The translations under genes were made by a program, and so were the position numbers. From Dermatophagoides farinae (taxonomy: Eukaryota; Arthropoda; Arachnida; Sarcoptiformes; Pyroglyphidae), in contig NC_134684.1 of the NCBI RefSeq assembly GCF_024713945.1, forward strand, positions 1,221,001-1,285,000: a stretch of 64,000 nt of DNA. Direction: 5' to 3'. This document shows, in pieces, positions 2,966 to 57,184 of the stretch. Each line of letters opens with the position of its first letter. Within the stretch, counting starts at the first letter, position 1. Under the pieces are notes generated by a model that worked only from the letters and a program-made list of their open reading frames with translations, was not told where the DNA came from and made no database searches.

Positions 2966-22902
<19,937 letters not shown>

Positions 22903-48736: not shown

Positions 48737-51164
48737 GAGAATCGCATCCAGAATCGTGGCGTTATTGGTGGTGGTGGTCATTGTAGATTACGTATATCGT
48801 TTCTAATCAGTTGACAATAAAAAGCCAAAAAAAAAATCGGTATACCGAATACAAAAATTGTTGGCCTTGTTTCCAAACAAATATTATACATCTCAAGGGA
48901 AAAAGAAAGAAGGAAGAACAACAACAACAAAAAATTTTCAGTATCACAATCTGTTTTCTTTTCTTTTTTTTTTTGTTTTTTTTTACTCGTTTCAATTTGC
49001 TTGCTTGCTGGATCGTCGTCGCGGTCCAAGATCCATTGTGTTTGTAGATGTGTTTCATTCATTCGCCATTCATTCATTATTGTTGACCAACAATGTTTTA
49101 AATTATCATAGTTTGTCATACATAAAACGATAACAACAACAACAAAAGATCAACAACAAACACACACAGACAAATGGTCAGTCTGAGAATTGAATAGACA
49201 CACACACACACACAGAGACAGACATTGCTTCTTTTTTTTCTTGGTTATCATCAAAATTTATGGCTCCGGTAATTTGTGTGTATTCATATCAACGATACAA
49301 CATCAACAAAAAAATAAAATAAAATGACAACTACCACTATTGACGGCGATTTTCTAAAATAATCTAAAAGATCATCATCATCAAATGAAAGATTTTAACA
49401 TTGACAGTAATAGTACAGAGTGAGAGACACGTGTTATATTGATTGAACAGAGGATAAAAAAAAAATTTTCCAACAAACTTCCGGTAATGATTCGTTAGTC
49501 AAACAATCGATTTGAATCAATTCTCTCTCTCTCTCTTTAGCTCAAATTCAATGCATTTGTAAATGAAAATTCCAAGCTCTAGTTGATTGGCAACAGAATA
49601 GAATAGAAAAAACCTTAATGGGCAGCCAAGCCAGCTAGCAAGTATCCATTTCTACGTTTGATTACTCTTGAGCGACAAACTAGACTACTACAAATCATTT
49701 TGATGCCAGAAATTCAGAAGAATATACAGAACGTCATCAACGTCATCAACATCATTATCAGTGAACAATGATTAAAATCGTTTATTCTACTTTGGCCACC
49801 ATCATTGGCCACGATTAAGCTTTTCAGTCAGCCAAACAGCCAAACAAAACAAAACGAGAAAAAAAGACAATTCATAAATGATATTGGTATATGAAAGTTA
49901 ACAACAACAAAAACAGCAACGATGACGACGACGACGAATGATTCGATTAAGTGTGTCCACCAAGTGAATGAGAATCTTTTTTTCTCTGTGTTGAAAATCG
50001 AAATCGGAATCGAAATACAAATATAAAACAAACTCAAACAATCAAGTGGCCAAACTAAATAAAGGAAAAGAGATGAGCATCCAAGTGGATCATACAGCAG
50101 TCAGTACTTATGTGGTGATGTAGAAATGGACATTTGAATTCTATGAGTTTTCTTCTCGACATATATCGAAAATTAAAACACGTGTATTGTTTGTGGAATA
50201 GTAAAATGATTCAAATTCAGTAATTCATTTCAATATTACGAATCGGTTTCGGTGTGTGGTCGTCGTAGTCGTCGTCGTCATCGTCATCGTTGATCGGCTG
50301 GTCCAAAAATAAATATAAATAAAATAGACACATTTCAACAATAACAACAACAACAACAACAACAACAACAAAACAGGACCAAAATTATTTTCTGATCTCT
50401 TTCTCTTGGTTTGATGTTGTGTTTATGCCATGTGCATAAACAAAAAAAAAGCAAATGCAGCACACACTCGTACACAATTCATTAGGTCTAATTTAGCTAA
50501 GTGGCCTATCATCATTTCTCTTTTCATCTTTCTATTTTTTCTTTCTTTCGTTGGTCCAGTTTTTTTTTCAGTCTTTTTCGGTAACATCAAAATGGACCAG
50601 GACCACATGTCAGTTAGGACAGATCCATCACCAACAAGATCCGTTGAAATGAGTTGGACAACAAAAAATGAGATAGAGAAAGATGACCATAATCAATTTA
50701 CTTTCCATTTATGTTATTTGGTGAACACACAATGTGAAGAAGAAGAAGAAGAAAAAAAACGGTCAGCAGCAGTAGTGTAACGTTTTTAGTGAAAACAGTC
50801 ACTTTAATTAAAAGAAATTCAACTGTGCAACATATATATATATATAATGATAATGATAATAATACACACATGTGGACATTGGACACAATGTCCATTTAAA
50901 CATCAATAATTGTTAAGGTTTTGAAATGAAAACAATGATGATTTGGATTGATTGACGCCACAATACCCATACACACACACAGAGAGAGAGAGAGAGACAG
51001 ACAAAATTCTAATTTAATTCATTCATTCAATGAAATTTATTTTTAAGAATACGGCAAAAAGAATCCAGGAAAACATAATCGTCAAGATATGAATGGTGGA
51101 TTCTATTGCGAAATAAAACAAAAAAAAAACAGCAACAAAACAACACAACCAACCAATCATGAGC

Positions 51165-51424
51165 TGTTTGAGAATTTAGTTTATTGAAACAAGCAAAGAA
51201 AATATGGATATGGATGAAAGAAATTAATACAAAGAAATGATGTGAAGATCATAATAACAAAATGTATGTAGCCAAGAAAGTGTGTGTAACGATTGTCAGA
51301 GTGTATTTGTCACTGTGTGCATCTGCTTTTATAAGCATGTTCAATCTAAAATGATTAGGGTTCAATCAAAGATGTTAGAAGACATAGTTCAAACATGAGA
51401 CATCGTCTATCGTTTTCTCTAACA
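51165..51424 (-). repeat. 3' LTR of the copia-type element
   Basis: 260 bp, identical by eye to 55237-55496. It contains the last 70 nt of the ORF including its stop codon, and AATAAA at 51185-51180 near its far end as polyadenylation signal. Confidence 0.95.
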
Positions 51425-54400
51425 CTTCCACCCGATTGACGAATGGTCATGCAGCTCCTGGAAATAAAGATGTGATCAAAAACAAATTGAATGTTGTAAC
51501 GATGGATATGATGAATGAATATGTCCACAAATGAAAGGACCAATAATTTAAATGCCATGGAAATGGGCTTCAATGATACCAAGTAATCCATCGATAATAA
51601 ATCCAGAAGTTCAATTGAAATCCAATCAAAATATCGATATAATCGTTTTACCGTTTTGATATTGACCAATGTGTTGAGCAGAAAATGAGCGAGTAAAACG
51701 ATGCGTGCGAAAATCAATCGCTTGATGAACAATAAATATAACTTAATACGGATATTTTCAAAATCCAAGTTATTTTGTAATCGGTTTCGTCCAATCGAAG
51801 TAGATTTGTAGAAATTGATCAATACGTCCAAATAAGAGATAAAATTGTACCATTTTGGTTTGTTCAATGTTTGTAGGACAGATACGATATGATCAAATAA
51901 AACTAAATACAAACGTAAATCTACTTCGTAGGTTAAATTCAACCAATAAAAGGTTTCGTCTAAAGGATCAAATAAATATTTCACGAAATAATTAAAGAAG
52001 ATAAAAACGATGATTAATTTAAAAACTTGAGATATGATCAAATCATCAAATCGTATGGTTCGATACAATCGAATCTTCAAGTCAACCCGTTTACGTGATA
52101 CAATAATTTCATTTGGTGGTGGGTCAACCAATCTTGGTTTTGCGATTTTACCAGCTATGTCGAATAGTAATGGTGAATAATTTGACAGTACATAATCGGT
52201 GGTCAGTAGACTTCTTTCAAATGATGCTAAAAATATGTCTTTTTGTCTACGGAAGAACTTAGCAGCCGCTGGTAAACGTCTATAAGACTGTTCATAAATA
52301 ATTTGAGCAATGATCAAATTGCTAGTACCAGAAAACTTTTCGAAAATTAAAGATATGCTGCTTCCACCACAATTTGTGTCGAGAAAATTAAAAACGCTTC
52401 CACCGGAATCGATGGTGATAATCTTTACGTTGTTTCTTCCACCATTATCGACATTGATTTTGGGAATATTTACCTTAAAACGATGAAGAGCATTGATAGC
52501 TGTAAAATCGGTAAATTTCTTTAAATACGATTGATGTGACGACTTCCATGAGACTTTTTCATAAATAGTGATAAGATCGGATAGCTCAATGCGTCGATAA
52601 TAACGATAACATGAAAAATTTTCGATAAAATATCCGATCATTCGAAACTTGATTTTCACTAATTTAACAATGTTTTCATCACGATTGTTCGTGGAATATT
52701 CAATAAATGTGAAAATATGGAAATTTGTTAAATAAATTCGTCGTCCAAAATTTTGCTCGATAGAAAAATAATAATTTGAAATGATCATATGATTGTTGAT
52801 TGTTATACCATGAAGAGCAAACAATTTTGACGAGAATAATAATGGTTGGCTCGCAATTTTTCGTATCAATAAATCCACAAGACCATGTTGCAATGGCAAT
52901 TCAGAAGAAATAAAACCAGATTTTATGCCATGCCGTGCCAGACACAAAACAGCATCCTTGGCAAATATCACAGATTGATGGTCTGTCCGGATAGATGAAA
53001 CATCATAGTCGGTATCGACTACGGAGATATTTTTGATACGTTCAAAATCATACGATAAAATAGATGGATTTTCCATAAAAACAGAATAATCAAAAATTGC
53101 GACCAGAAATAAATTTCCATAAAATGATCGTCCATTGACGTCGTCTGTAACGAGACAAGAAATTGTTTCAGGTAAAAACTTACGATATGGTTCCTGTTGG
53201 TGTAAATTAAAACGTTTGCTCAAACAATAAAGAGCACGTGAACCAATATCAATAAAATCAGCAGTGACATGATCGATAAAAATTTTCATAGATTTAACAA
53301 CGTGATCAGTCAGTAAATAATTCGGCTTATTGTGTCGATGCAGCGTCATCCCCGTACCATTTATCGTTTGGCCAGATAATCGGCAGAAATAAGAAATGAA
53401 AATCAAATTTTGAGGTATTTTGGGGGTATAAAATATGATGACAATAAAGCCAGAAAAGATTGAGTGTTGGCCAAAATGATATTCATAAATAATGTGCCCA
53501 ATAAAAGAGCTTCGAATCAGATGATGCCAAAGTGAATAATTAAATCCAGAAAATTCATCAGGAAAAGAATGGGAAAACATCTGATGATTGACGAAATGAA
53601 AATTCGATTCACTTTTGTTAAAAATTGATAAACGATTCAAATCGGGATATTTGTCAGGAATTAAACATTTGAAAATAGGCTGATAATTCAAAAGAAAATT
53701 GTCATCCGATTCAATTTTGGTAACAATACGAGAAAATTTATATTTGAGATCGGGAATATCATAGCCAATACGGTACATCTTCATCTGACAATTGTACAAA
53801 ATTTCATCCGATTTAATCAATAGAGGCAAATCGTTGATTCGATAAACATCATCAGATTCAGTTCGTTTCGAACCAGACTGATGGTAAGCCATGACACTAT
53901 GAGCAATATGCTGCATGTTGATATAATGATAATTGAAATCATAAAAATTACGTGGCGGATCGATAATATGGCCGATTTCATTAAAAATACCACGATTTGA
54001 AAACGATGATTTAAAAACATCAATAGGAAATGATCCAAAACTTTTCAATAAAATCTCGGCTTCTCTGGAAACACTTGTCCAGGATAAAATATCATTGTTG
54101 CCGGTAAGAACATAATGTTCGTTCACGATTCGTTTAAAACCAAAGAAGGGAATTTTGTTGTTTACGCCGATGTTCATCATCTTTTCGGATGGAAATTGTG
54201 TCGTATCACCGTTAAAATTTGATTCATTGATGTCAATATGTCGGTTTGGAAGCTGTTGATCATCAGCAACCCTTCTGGAAATACCAGGTAAACAAAAAAT
54301 AATAGATTCATCGACGATATTGCGGCCAACTTCATCAACCTCTGATTCAATAGTTGAGGTGATGGTATCTGGTGATGATTCAGCAGCACACATTTGTTTT

Positions 54401-55131
54401 GAAACGTATTCGTTTTGCTTAGAAGCCATAGTTTGTGGCGCTGTATTTTGCTCGACACGTAAACGAAGCTCAAACATGTTGACATATTGATCGCTCCAAT
54501 CGGCTATCATCATTGGTTGATCATGGCGGTAAAGGATCATGCCTTCACTATCAGTTTCGCCATTAAAACCCTTCTCGCGGCAAAGTTGACCGATTGAAAT
54601 GACATTAAATGGTTGATCTGGGATGAACAATACATCGCTAATTACACTTTTGATCCACTGTTTGCCATTGAAAACTTCACAAGGAAGATCGCCGATGATG
54701 GTATTTCGAACAGATCCATTCATTGATTGAATTGATTGTTCAGTACGACGCTGATTAATCAATAGATTTTGGTCGTTCACCATGTGATTACTTGTACCAT
54801 ATCCAGCATAAAATTTTGGCGTTGGTGGTGTTGGCAGATCAGCTGACTCAATCGTTGACACTGCTGCAATCAGAGAAACTTTTCGGTCTTTTAGTTTCTT
54901 TTCATCATCGTACCGTTGTTGTTCGTCGTTCATGCCGCTTTTGCAATTTACGAATCGATTTACGATTTGACGAACATGTTGAAAACGCCTTTTCGGGCTT
55001 AAGACTTTTGTCTTCTTCGCAAACACCATCGATGTACCATTCGAGTGATTCTTCATTGATGAAGTATTGGTGATGCGGGATGATGATGATTGAGCAAAAC
55101 GTTTGGCTTTCTTTCTTAAGCACAAATCCAT
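51355..55131 (-). CDS. Copia-type polyprotein, uninterrupted (1258 aa), catalytic motifs degenerate
   Basis: Start: ATG at 55131 with a strong context (A at -3, G at +4). By eye: residues 84-225 resemble the gag end, protease and pre-integrase segment (VSLIA, TSNHMVND, DVLFIPDQPFNVISI). Then a second copia polyprotein: gag-like 330-370 (VLTGNNDILSW), decayed zinc knuckle near 445-460, protease-like 505-580 (FHFVNHQMFS, FYTPKIPQNLIFIS), integrase 595-760 (HRHNKPNYLL, VTDDVNGRSFYGN, IRTD, ARHGIK), post-integrase 820-862 (MIGYFIENFSCYRYY), RT from about 870 with LFDPLDETFYW (1053-1063) and LFDHIV (1078-1083), and the RNase H approach 1130-1170 (KTVKRLYRYF). Protease DSG is absent from both copies, RT YVDD reads LFDH, the LYGLKQ part of RT is missing and most of RNase H is gone. 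The product is predicted to lack enzyme activity. The last 23 codons lie in the 3' LTR. A recombinant of two elements is likely. Confidence 0.8.
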   Translation of the reverse strand: MDLCLRKKAKRFAQSSSSRITNTSSMKNHSNGTSMVFAKKTKVLSPKRRFQHVRQIVNRFVNCKSGMNDEQQRYDDEKKLKDRKVSLIAAVSTIESADLPTPPTPKFYAGYGTSNHMVNDQNLLINQRRTEQSIQSMNGSVRNTIIGDLPCEVFNGKQWIKSVISDVLFIPDQPFNVISIGQLCREKGFNGETDSEGMILYRHDQPMMIADWSDQYVNMFELRLRVEQNTAPQTMASKQNEYVSKQMCAAESSPDTITSTIESEVDEVGRNIVDESIIFCLPGISRRVADDQQLPNRHIDINESNFNGDTTQFPSEKMMNIGVNNKIPFFGFKRIVNEHYVLTGNNDILSWTSVSREAEILLKSFGSFPIDVFKSSFSNRGIFNEIGHIIDPPRNFYDFNYHYINMQHIAHSVMAYHQSGSKRTESDDVYRINDLPLLIKSDEILYNCQMKMYRIGYDIPDLKYKFSRIVTKIESDDNFLLNYQPIFKCLIPDKYPDLNRLSIFNKSESNFHFVNHQMFSHSFPDEFSGFNYSLWHHLIRSSFIGHIIYEYHFGQHSIFSGFIVIIFYTPKIPQNLIFISYFCRLSGQTINGTGMTLHRHNKPNYLLTDHVVKSMKIFIDHVTADFIDIGSRALYCLSKRFNLHQQEPYRKFLPETISCLVTDDVNGRSFYGNLFLVAIFDYSVFMENPSILSYDFERIKNISVVDTDYDVSSIRTDHQSVIFAKDAVLCLARHGIKSGFISSELPLQHGLVDLLIRKIASQPLLFSSKLFALHGITINNHMIISNYYFSIEQNFGRRIYLTNFHIFTFIEYSTNNRDENIVKLVKIKFRMIGYFIENFSCYRYYRRIELSDLITIYEKVSWKSSHQSYLKKFTDFTAINALHRFKVNIPKINVDNGGRNNVKIITIDSGGSVFNFLDTNCGGSSISLIFEKFSGTSNLIIAQIIYEQSYRRLPAAAKFFRRQKDIFLASFERSLLTTDYVLSNYSPLLFDIAGKIAKPRLVDPPPNEIIVSRKRVDLKIRLYRTIRFDDLIISQVFKLIIVFIFFNYFVKYLFDPLDETFYWLNLTYEVDLRLYLVLFDHIVSVLQTLNKPKWYNFISYLDVLINFYKSTSIGRNRLQNNLDFENIRIKLYLLFIKRLIFARIVLLAHFLLNTLVNIKTVKRLYRYFDWISIELLDLLSMDYLVSLKPISMAFKLLVLSFVDIFIHHIHRYNIQFVFDHIFISRSCMTIRQSGGSVRENDRRCLMFELCLLTSLIEP
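51425..51434 (-). promoter_or_regulatory. Polypurine tract of the element
   Basis: CGGGTGGAAG directly before the 3' LTR on the minus strand, the expected place for plus-strand priming. It is short and interrupted, and is read through by the ORF (SGGSV). Confidence 0.6.
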
Positions 55132-55224
55132 TTTTCATATATCGCAGATTTTAAAAATGATGAAATTCAAAATTGATATCACAAAGATAAAATAAATCTG
55201 GATATATCACAGCGTTAAGCATGT

Positions 55225-55236
55225 GGACCCATAACC
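55225..55236 (-). promoter_or_regulatory. Primer-binding site (initiator tRNA-Met, internal)
   Basis: GGTTATGGGTCC begins directly after the 5' LTR. The complement, GGACCCATAACC, matches the anticodon-loop sequence of eukaryotic initiator tRNA-Met (GGGCCCAUAACC) at 11 of 12 positions. Drosophila copia is known to prime with an internal fragment of this tRNA. Confidence 0.8.
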
Positions 55237-55496
55237 TGTTTGAGAATTTAGTTTATTGAAACAAGCAAAGAAAATATGGATATGGATGAAAGAAATTAAT
55301 ACAAAGAAATGATGTGAAGATCATAATAACAAAATGTATGTAGCCAAGAAAGTGTGTGTAACGATTGTCAGAGTGTATTTGTCACTGTGTGCATCTGCTT
55401 TTATAAGCATGTTCAATCTAAAATGATTAGGGTTCAATCAAAGATGTTAGAAGACATAGTTCAAACATGAGACATCGTCTATCGTTTTCTCTAACA
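55237..55496 (-). repeat. 5' LTR of the copia-type element
   Basis: 260 bp, TG...CA. On the minus strand it carries TATAAAAG at 55405-55398 and AATAAA at 55257-55252. Transcription probably starts about 30 bp after the TATA box, giving a short U3 and a longer R-U5. Confidence 0.95.
55398..55405 (-). promoter_or_regulatory. TATA box of the 5' LTR
   Basis: TATAAAAG in the context GCTTATAAAAGC on the minus strand; a strong consensus in the right part of an LTR. The same box occurs in the 3' LTR. Confidence 0.7.
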
Positions 55497-57184
55497 TGAG
55501 CTGATTTTCATCAACTGATTGAACTGTCAGAATACAGGATTCCTAATAAAACAGTAACAACAACAACAACAACATACACACACACCATACAAAGTTATAA
55601 ATAAATGTCGCCAAACCAGAACACAAACGCTTTACAATTATTGTTTGAGTGAAAAACACAAAAACACAAAAAAAAATCCATTATGGAAATTGTACTGTAA
55701 CGAATAAAAACCTTGTTTCAAATAAAAAACGGTGTGAAACGCTAAAATGTTTTACCGTTATTTAGAAATTGTTTTTTCGCTCGTTCGTTGAACACAATCA
55801 GAATGATCATTGTTGTTTTCTCTGTTGAAAACAAAAAAAAAAAGAAGAAAACACACACAATAAAAACAAACTTTGCTTTCACCAAACATTTGGTTGGTTA
55901 TAGCCGAGGATGATGATGATGATGATATTAAATAAAATCCAAAAAGGATTCTAAAGGTTGGCTTTATTTTTATTTTTATTTTTATTTTTTTTTGCAATCG
56001 CAATAATGTACCTCAAATGAATTAGCATTGTTGCTGCTGCTGCTGCTACTGCTGTTGTGGAGCAAATAATAAAATTACCGGATTCAGGAGAATGAAACAA
56101 AAAAAAAAGAAATTCAAGGCCGAGATTTTGATGATGATGATGCCATATCCCAACAACAACAACAATGACGACGACGACGACGACGACAATAAGAGCAACA
56201 GTATATGGACACACACATTAGGTTGATTAAATTGCCAAACATTTTCATTTTCATTTTCTTTTTTTTTATTTATTTATTCACATTCTTTATTATTTTATAT
56301 TTGTTGTTGATGATTCTGTTGACGTGTGTGTGTGTGTGTAAGTGTATACGGTTCGTGTGTGTGTGTGATTGGTTACCGAAATTAAAGCGAAAAAAAAAGT
56401 TTTCGTTTAGTAAAAAAAACCAACCACAATGACAAACAGACAAACAGAGCTGTGAAAATGTTTCAGGATGATGATGATGATTATAGAATAAATAAAGAAA
56501 TATGATCAGACAAAATCAAGAATTTTTTGTTCTAATGTTTGTTGGTTGATGATTGGCTAGTTTTTATTTTTTTATTTATTTTTTTTTTTGAAAACAAAAA
56601 CAGAATCCATCATCACGACCAATGAATTAGATTTGATGTTGATGTTGATGATGTCCCCCCCCAGTTTTTTTCTAGTGTGAAACACGTGAAGCTTGACACT
56701 TGAAAAAAGAGAAAATGAGGTGATAGTAGATGGCAGATGCCACCATCATCAAACGGTTAAAAGTGGGCAAATAATAATATATCAATGAAACACACAGTAG
56801 TAGTAGTAGTAACAGCAGCAGCATCAGCCATTTTATAGAATGAATGCTGGCCAAAAAAAAAATAAAAATAAAAATAAAAAGCATCAACCATCAAAACCAC
56901 AGAAAAAACAAAACAAAAACCAAAATATAACAAACTTTAACGTGAATTAATCAAAAAAAAACCACCACCACCACCAGGAAAAAGAGACACATGCGTCAAA
57001 ATAGTAATAAAAGGAATATAAAATTCCAAACCAAAAAAACAAAACAAAAAAAGAACAGCGAGAGTGTGTGTGTGAGAGAGAGAGAGACAAATTAAATTAT
57101 TCTTCATTCATCAATTCGAGAGAAGAAAGAAAAAAAAATAAATAAATAGATAAAAGGACGATTCTGTATTTATCAGTGATTCTT

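Follow-up and report, generated by a model that had tools for sequence, protein, structure and literature searches.

A young non-autonomous copia family of the mite Dermatophagoides farinae whose long frame may be held open while its residues change almost freely

LARD and TRIM elements are long terminal repeat (LTR) elements that are moved in trans and have an intact LTR and primer-binding site (PBS) but no long open reading frame (ORF), and TR-GAG elements are non-autonomous LTR elements that keep a gag ORF. Ty1 p22, a C-terminal fragment of Gag, is reported to inhibit helper particles in trans. The nearest precedent that we met for non-autonomous elements with intact ORFs is that of the Athila families of Arabidopsis, which are pol-less and carry ORFs for Gag and Env under purifying selection (PMC2410132). 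Here we describe a copia-type LTR retrotransposon with a 1258-codon ORF, and the other copies of its family, from a 64,000-nucleotide stretch of the Dermatophagoides farinae genome (GCF_024713945.1, contig NC_134684.1, positions 1,221,001 to 1,285,000), hereafter called the window (Table 1). An exon of this genome that belongs to a group-2 allergen matches solved Der f 2 across 122 residues, of which 120 agree. A literature search for mite copia elements found no paper.

The element resembles the intact copia elements L034, L035 and L037 of the same genome, and L032, L036 and L038, in its LTR layout, with GGTTATGGG at the same PBS place after the 5′ LTR in all six, and in a single polyprotein frame that ends near the start of the 3′ LTR; where its protein matches significantly those of the ten intact pols compared, identity is 24–33%. 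The PBS of the window element is presumably a half initiator-tRNA-Met site. The intact elements, in contrast, hold RVT_2, and L037, the one scanned, also holds the domains from gag to SH3-like, whereas Pfam finds only Pol_BBD in the window element. Unlike in LARD and TRIM elements, the interior is taken up almost entirely by one frame. The retained ORF in a non-autonomous LTR element is a feature shared with TR-GAG elements, but no gag domain was recognised in the window ORF by Pfam with E up to 10. With Athila the family shares long open frames that are kept, movement by the enzymes of other families and recombinant ancestry, and it differs in that its gag is unrecognised and its residues are under no clear purifying selection (PMC2410132). 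Compared with Ty1 p22, the window ORF offers a weak gag C-terminal alignment at its start.

The enzymes of the polyprotein are dead, missing or unrecognisable. The Pfam search, in which the HMMER filters discard most matches above E 0.1, returned Pol_BBD alone (residues 111–189, 2.8e-10) and no match to Retrotran_gag_2 or RVT_2, whereas the same library recognised gag, Pol_BBD, GAG-pre-integrase, integrase (below the cut-off), SH3-like and RVT_2 in the intact L037. The body was also compared by BLAST with the ten intact pols and with a profile built from six intact pols of the genome. As the original prediction had noted for AGYGTS at residue 109, the protease Asp is lost: the site reads D.GAS.H in the six intact pols, and 4/4 copies of the family have Gly in place of Asp. 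The protease–integrase block occurs twice in the ORF, degenerate each time. The first integrase copy misses the IRTDH stretch; the second retains IRTDH and has lost the glutamate of QQNG..ER. Residues 537–920 align with residues 321–781 of L034 pol (25% identity, E 4e-19), and residues 501–603 score 0.3 bits in the full profile scan and 4.9 bits as a piece. NKSESN does stand at residue 505, as predicted, but it falls in this weakly matching second protease copy. LFDH likewise stands at residue 1078, but no match aligns it to the YVDD box of reverse transcriptase (RT), and no RT domain was found. Residues 900–1160 and 380–560, scanned as pieces with the six-pol profile, gave no match; no relative was found for residues 396–500 and much of 907–1142, and a search with the ORF against sequences of solved structures gave no match at E up to 5. 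A BLAST stretch at residues 1050–1168 is not significant (E 2.1) and begins beyond the YVDD of L035. Residues 1143–1168, a trace aligned beyond the RT domain, are probably the start of the RNase H part. Of the copia order protease–integrase–RT–RNase H in one frame, the ORF shows protease–integrase twice and a trace beyond RT, with RT undetected. As far as these alignments go, the RT is unrecognisable or lost, and is not demonstrated as point-mutated. No gag domain was recognised, although the start of the ORF seems to lie in the C-terminal part of gag, where there is a weak match. An autonomous element with intact motifs, misread in the original prediction, was considered and rejected, as the Pfam search gives Pol_BBD only. 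With its enzymes dead or missing, the family must be supplied with enzymes in trans.

A DNA search of the genome found four copies, namely the window copy, L002, L003 and L004, and a search with the LTR alone hit exactly eight sites, two per copy, with no solo LTRs; all these counts are lower bounds, and a distant relative could have escaped notice if it has neither a Pol_BBD nor an RVT_2 match. Each copy has a 5-bp duplication of its own (GCTCA, CTTCC, GATTC and TGAAT), its LTR pair is identical (260, 293, 243 and 243 bp; 260/260 positions in the window copy), and the Ty1/copia hallmarks (TG..CA LTR ends, 5-bp duplication, PBS and purine tract) are present in 4/4 copies. Because of the identical LTR pairs and separate target-site duplications (TSDs), all four copies are recent unless their LTRs have been converted, and the differences between copies should for the most part be older than the present insertions and so come from lineages still moving. 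Having transposed recently without enzymes of its own, the family is best classed as a non-autonomous LTR element. The youth of the element and its membership of a family moved in trans, with an open and enzymatically dead polyprotein, thus stand as predicted. Helper candidates are the elements that share GGTTATGGG, namely L032, L034, L035, L036, L037 and L038; the LTR pairs of L034, L035 and L036 are identical, so that these three have also moved recently; the LTR search of the genome found no intact element bearing the LTR of the window family. A captured host gene was rejected, since the DNA search gave only the four copies, a lower bound, and part of the body aligns in frame to intact pols. 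Between the window copy and L003 the LTR differs by 14% and the ORF by 2.3%, and L003 and L004 have the same LTR sequence but ORFs that are 3.6% apart; recombination probably exchanged LTRs between the window type and the L003/L004 type. Between the window copy and L002, substitution density is 2.0% in the ORF, which is not reduced compared with the 1.5% of the LTR or the 1.0% of the leader.

The frame itself has stayed open. In the window copy the ORF is free of stops in AT-rich DNA (34% GC), as first noted, while each of the other five frames holds 68–103 stops, and about 48 stops would be expected in codons 230–1258 from their own position-specific composition. Counted from stop to stop, with one codon before the ATG, the frame has 1259 codons in both the window copy and L003 and 1244 in L002, and it is broken in L004. 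Codon usage of the ORF body correlates with that of intact pols at r 0.89, compared with 0.82–0.93 for intact pols against their own pool and 0.40–0.81 for other frames, and the body would accordingly be read as descending from genuine coding sequence in its current frame. Antisense coding is ruled out by the 76–100 stops in the antisense frames of the window copy. Substitutions were counted on an alignment and tree of the three open copies (the window copy, L002 and L003), which gave 130 polarisable changes in the ORF. None of them created a stop, against about 7 expected (P ~0.001); without the window branch, 0 arose against 5.15 expected (P 0.003). Relative to the window copy, L002 or L003 gained no stop in the ORF frame, and the gains in the remaining frames are 6, 3, 6, 5 and 5. 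When losses are counted as well, stop positions differ at 9, 8, 10, 8 and 15 places in these frames, but the 8–15 differing positions are not a fair control, because a stop-free frame has none to lose, and the 3–6 gains are. Among the three open copies, all four indels before the part of the ORF that lies in the 3′ LTR are in frame, as against 1/9 in the 5′ LTR and leader (P 0.007).

The residues, by contrast, seem to be nearly free. The 130 substitutions fall on the three codon positions as 44/40/46, and 37 are synonymous against 36.1 expected without selection, so that the ratio of nonsynonymous to synonymous rates (dN/dS) is 0.97. A dN/dS of 0.5 is rejected (P 0.0003) and one of 0.7 is not (P 0.057); with the window branch left out, 100 substitutions remain, and values of 0.43 and 0.5 are rejected with P 0.002 and 0.014, respectively. 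Pairwise dN/dS among the three open copies is 0.74–1.05. Intact copia loci of the genome, counted by the same method, give 0.04–0.43, a range that comes from 10 informative of 12 listed pairs, drawn from 25 loci and not all independent. Intact loci with near copies (L017/L018/L020, L019/L023/L024 and L027/L028) show a third-position bias, which the window family lacks. The original prediction had held that under drift the loss of catalytic sites would be accompanied by stops and frameshifts, and that the protein may still serve a structural or interfering function. The first argument fits the data, but what seems conserved is the open frame and not the residues; the second finds no support in a dN/dS near 1, although it is taken up again below as an alternative. 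Taken together, the frame looks as if it has been kept open while its residues were almost free to change.

We propose, with a probability of roughly 0.4, that this young non-autonomous copia family has its frame held open for the end-to-end translation of its RNA, the residues mattering little. Openness and near-free residues together fit a need for being translated. Capsid, reverse transcriptase, RNase H and integrase would be borrowed from other elements, most likely the intact copia elements of the same genome, and the frame, which runs from just past the PBS to within the 3′ LTR, would stay open since the RNA must be translated throughout. A ribosome that reaches a stop near the poly(A) end would spare the RNA the decay of early-stop messages. 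The protection might be another, in that translated RNA would be kept from feeding the defence of the mite by RNA-dependent RNA polymerase (RdRP), Dicer and small interfering RNAs (siRNAs). Dust mites have lost PIWI-interacting RNAs (piRNAs) and silence transposons by Dicer siRNAs, and D. farinae possesses RdRPs (PMC5805368). RNA that goes untranslated or meets an early stop may be what is destroyed or what RdRP copies, and the shielding would last until a helper particle packages the RNA. The stricter version of the proposal, that translatability is selected without any product, so that a 3.8-kb frame is kept solely for the passage of ribosomes, shielding the RNA from surveillance or siRNA while the polypeptide drifts, is more doubtful. 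The titles and abstract openings of the literature searched held no description of such an open frame with free residues, which is not proof of absence. Long open frames are usually taken as proof of a useful protein, whereas here frame and residues seem to be under different pressures, both of them measurable in the same set of sequences. If the proposal is true, it draws a line between being translated and encoding something, suggests a way in which a family with a dead polyprotein stays mobile and makes it possible to test directly, in an animal that lacks piRNAs, whether transposon RNA is protected by being translated; if it is false, what remains is a documented non-autonomous copia lineage from a mite that produces allergens.

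Several observations weigh against this proposal, and those that concern residues bear on the alternative that the polyprotein is made and does an undemanding or fast-changing job, such as binding and poisoning, or coating, the helper Gag or the RNA, its residues being weakly constrained or diversifying. The amino-acid replacements are milder than would be expected at random (P 0.028; 0.013 with the window branch left out), although within codons 230–930 the same comparison gives P 0.105. In the three pairs of open copies, dN/dS is 0.35–0.82 in the first 230 codons, 0.88–1.42 in the middle 700 and 0.52–0.77 in the last 330 (930–1258), and an unweighted method applied to the six pairs of the four copies gives 0.55–0.90 for the whole ORF and 0.09–0.55 for codons 930–1258, so that the last part of the ORF may be under constraint. 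The first 230 codons, which hold the best-preserved domain, have 13 changes, at 3/1/9 over the codon positions. Codon usage near that of intact pols means that the body has been ordinary coding sequence for long. The frame is open in three copies, as such a protein would have it, and Ty1 p22 is a precedent for an interfering protein. A dN/dS near 1 over 130 changes, with the middle 700 codons at 0.88–1.42, speaks on the other side, as do the damaged or unrecognisable integrase motifs, protease site and RT, and we consider a role of the protein possible at best, and less probable than a frame held open for translation. Upstream ATGs also count against translation of the ORF: 4–5 lie ahead of it, downstream of the point where the transcript presumably starts, and three of these follow the PBS. 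The intact L034, L035 and L037, however, carry one or two ATGs after the PBS themselves, and those of the window family need not forbid translation of the ORF.

The remaining objections concern the openness of the frame, and some of them would suit pure drift, in which the frame is what is left of a dead pol and has stayed open in three copies by chance. The open copies number only three, on three contigs. The copies are mosaics in which LTR types are swapped and differences clustered, so that the 130 changes come partly in blocks and the independent ones are fewer. A fifth indel in the ORF, which inserts 7 bp at codon 1239 of L002, does not keep the frame and makes it 15 codons shorter; this indel was excluded from the count above since it lies inside the 3′ LTR part. 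L004 is broken although its LTRs are identical. Compared with the window copy it has 24 deletions, of which 17 are not multiples of three and 21 fall within codons 544–890, and its six stops relative to the window frame sit beside the deletion patches. With so many deletions beside identical LTRs and a TSD of its own, L004 speaks against a strict requirement for the open frame, unless it was damaged once already inserted or was misassembled. The 21 deletions in codons 544–890 are accompanied by short replaced patches, one of which, by eye, is like the copy's own 5′ flank, and the damage could be an assembly error or the work of faulty reverse transcription. A dN/dS near 1 is also what drift would give. 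Drift does not readily account for 0 stops against about 7 expected, for 4/4 counted indels in frame or for the 3–6 new stops in each other frame, and in a body so remote from the ten intact pols it should have brought many stops. We therefore regard drift as improbable, more so than a role of the protein. That the ORF arose only through misassembly or the choice of frame, for which the suspicious patches of L004 could be cited, is hardly credible with the frame present in three copies on three contigs and homology and codon usage both falling in the ORF frame; the assembly, if it is the one described in PMC11074847, is a long-read assembly polished with short reads.

Table 1. Features of the element in the window, numbered from the first nucleotide of the 64,000-nucleotide stretch
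Feature	Position	Strand	Basis
Complete LTR retrotransposon, copia type, non-autonomous, 4332 bp	51165..55496	-	LTR pair, TSD, PBS and polypurine tract; three other genomic copies
5′ LTR, 260 bp, TGTTAG...AAACA	55237..55496	-	Same sequence as 3′ LTR
3′ LTR, 260 bp	51165..51424	-	Same sequence as 5′ LTR
TSD, upstream copy, GCTCA on element strand	55497..55501	-	GCTCA on both sides of the element
TSD, downstream copy, GCTCA on element strand	51160..51164	-	GCTCA on both sides of the element
PBS GGTTATGGGTCCACATGC, abuts 5′ LTR	55219..55236	-	Read at 5′ LTR end
Polypurine tract region ATCGGGTGGAAG, abuts 3′ LTR	51425..51436	-	Role by position only
1258-codon ORF, from ATG	51355..55131	-	Frame open in three of four copies, broken in L004
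Gag C-terminal (weak)/protease/GAG-pre-integrase block, copy 1, residues 12–284	54280..55098	-	Six-pol profile, 156 bits; Pol_BBD, 2.8e-10
Protease active-site stretch AGYGTS, from residue 109	54790..54807	-	Gly at the place of the catalytic Asp
Protease to degenerate integrase, copy 1, residues 85–395	53947..54879	-	BLAST to L034 pol 271–585, 33% identity, E 2e-42
Second, very degenerate protease/pre-integrase block, residues 501–603	53323..53631	-	Weak profile match
Second degenerate integrase core and following linker, residues 675–906	52414..53109	-	Six-pol profile, 25.8 bits
Weak trace, residues 1143–1168	51628..51705	-	Borderline: -0.3 bits in full scan, 4.1 bits as piece

In the window copy the stop codon of the ORF lies 70 bp within the 3′ LTR, while the pol frames of ten other copia elements (L030–L039) end at points that range from 47 bp short of the 3′ LTR to 9 bp into it, when the LTR ends are taken as BLAST gave them. 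In both L036 and L038 the ATG within the PBS GGTTATGGG supplies the first Met of the open polyprotein frame, so that priming and the start of translation may overlap.

A second young non-autonomous copia family, of 2846 bp, is represented by L050 (1986–4831, C4) and L053 (C6). The LTRs of L050 are 154 bp long and identical. The family has a gag–protease–integrase region, 47–48% identical to L039 pol over residues 1–701 of the latter, and no RT, and its protease site, read by eye, is changed; the frame is open over 777 codons in L050, and in L053 one base breaks it close to the end. Pfam gave Pol_BBD and a zinc finger below the cut-offs and named no gag family, though this family is closer to TR-GAG than the window family is. 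The 12 substitutions between L050 and L053 fall at 3/1/8 over the codon positions, which is the usual pattern and sets the window family apart, although 12 changes are a small number. Pol_BBD matches with shared stop codons were considered as a comparison LTR family and rejected, since the two loci inspected, L048 and L049, gave no LTR pair and L048 has inverted repeats of about 230 bp. L048 is an inverted-end repeat with ends of about 230 bp that seems to hold a gag–protease piece of the L031 copia type, and matches with similar internal stops were seen, besides L048 and L049, at C4:1491046, C10:813481, C10:1418581, C9:2847107, C6:2883426 and C3:329354. L051 (C10:1071500-1077500) has a 584-codon frame that is 87–94% identical to L036 pol and has lost the integrase core in frame, which marks it as an apparent internal-deletion derivative. 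Elsewhere in the window, ORFs on the minus strand at 4584–5744 and 3284–4612, with a homeodomain match (2.4e-11) and a C2H2 finger below the cut-off, are probably exons of host transcription-factor genes.

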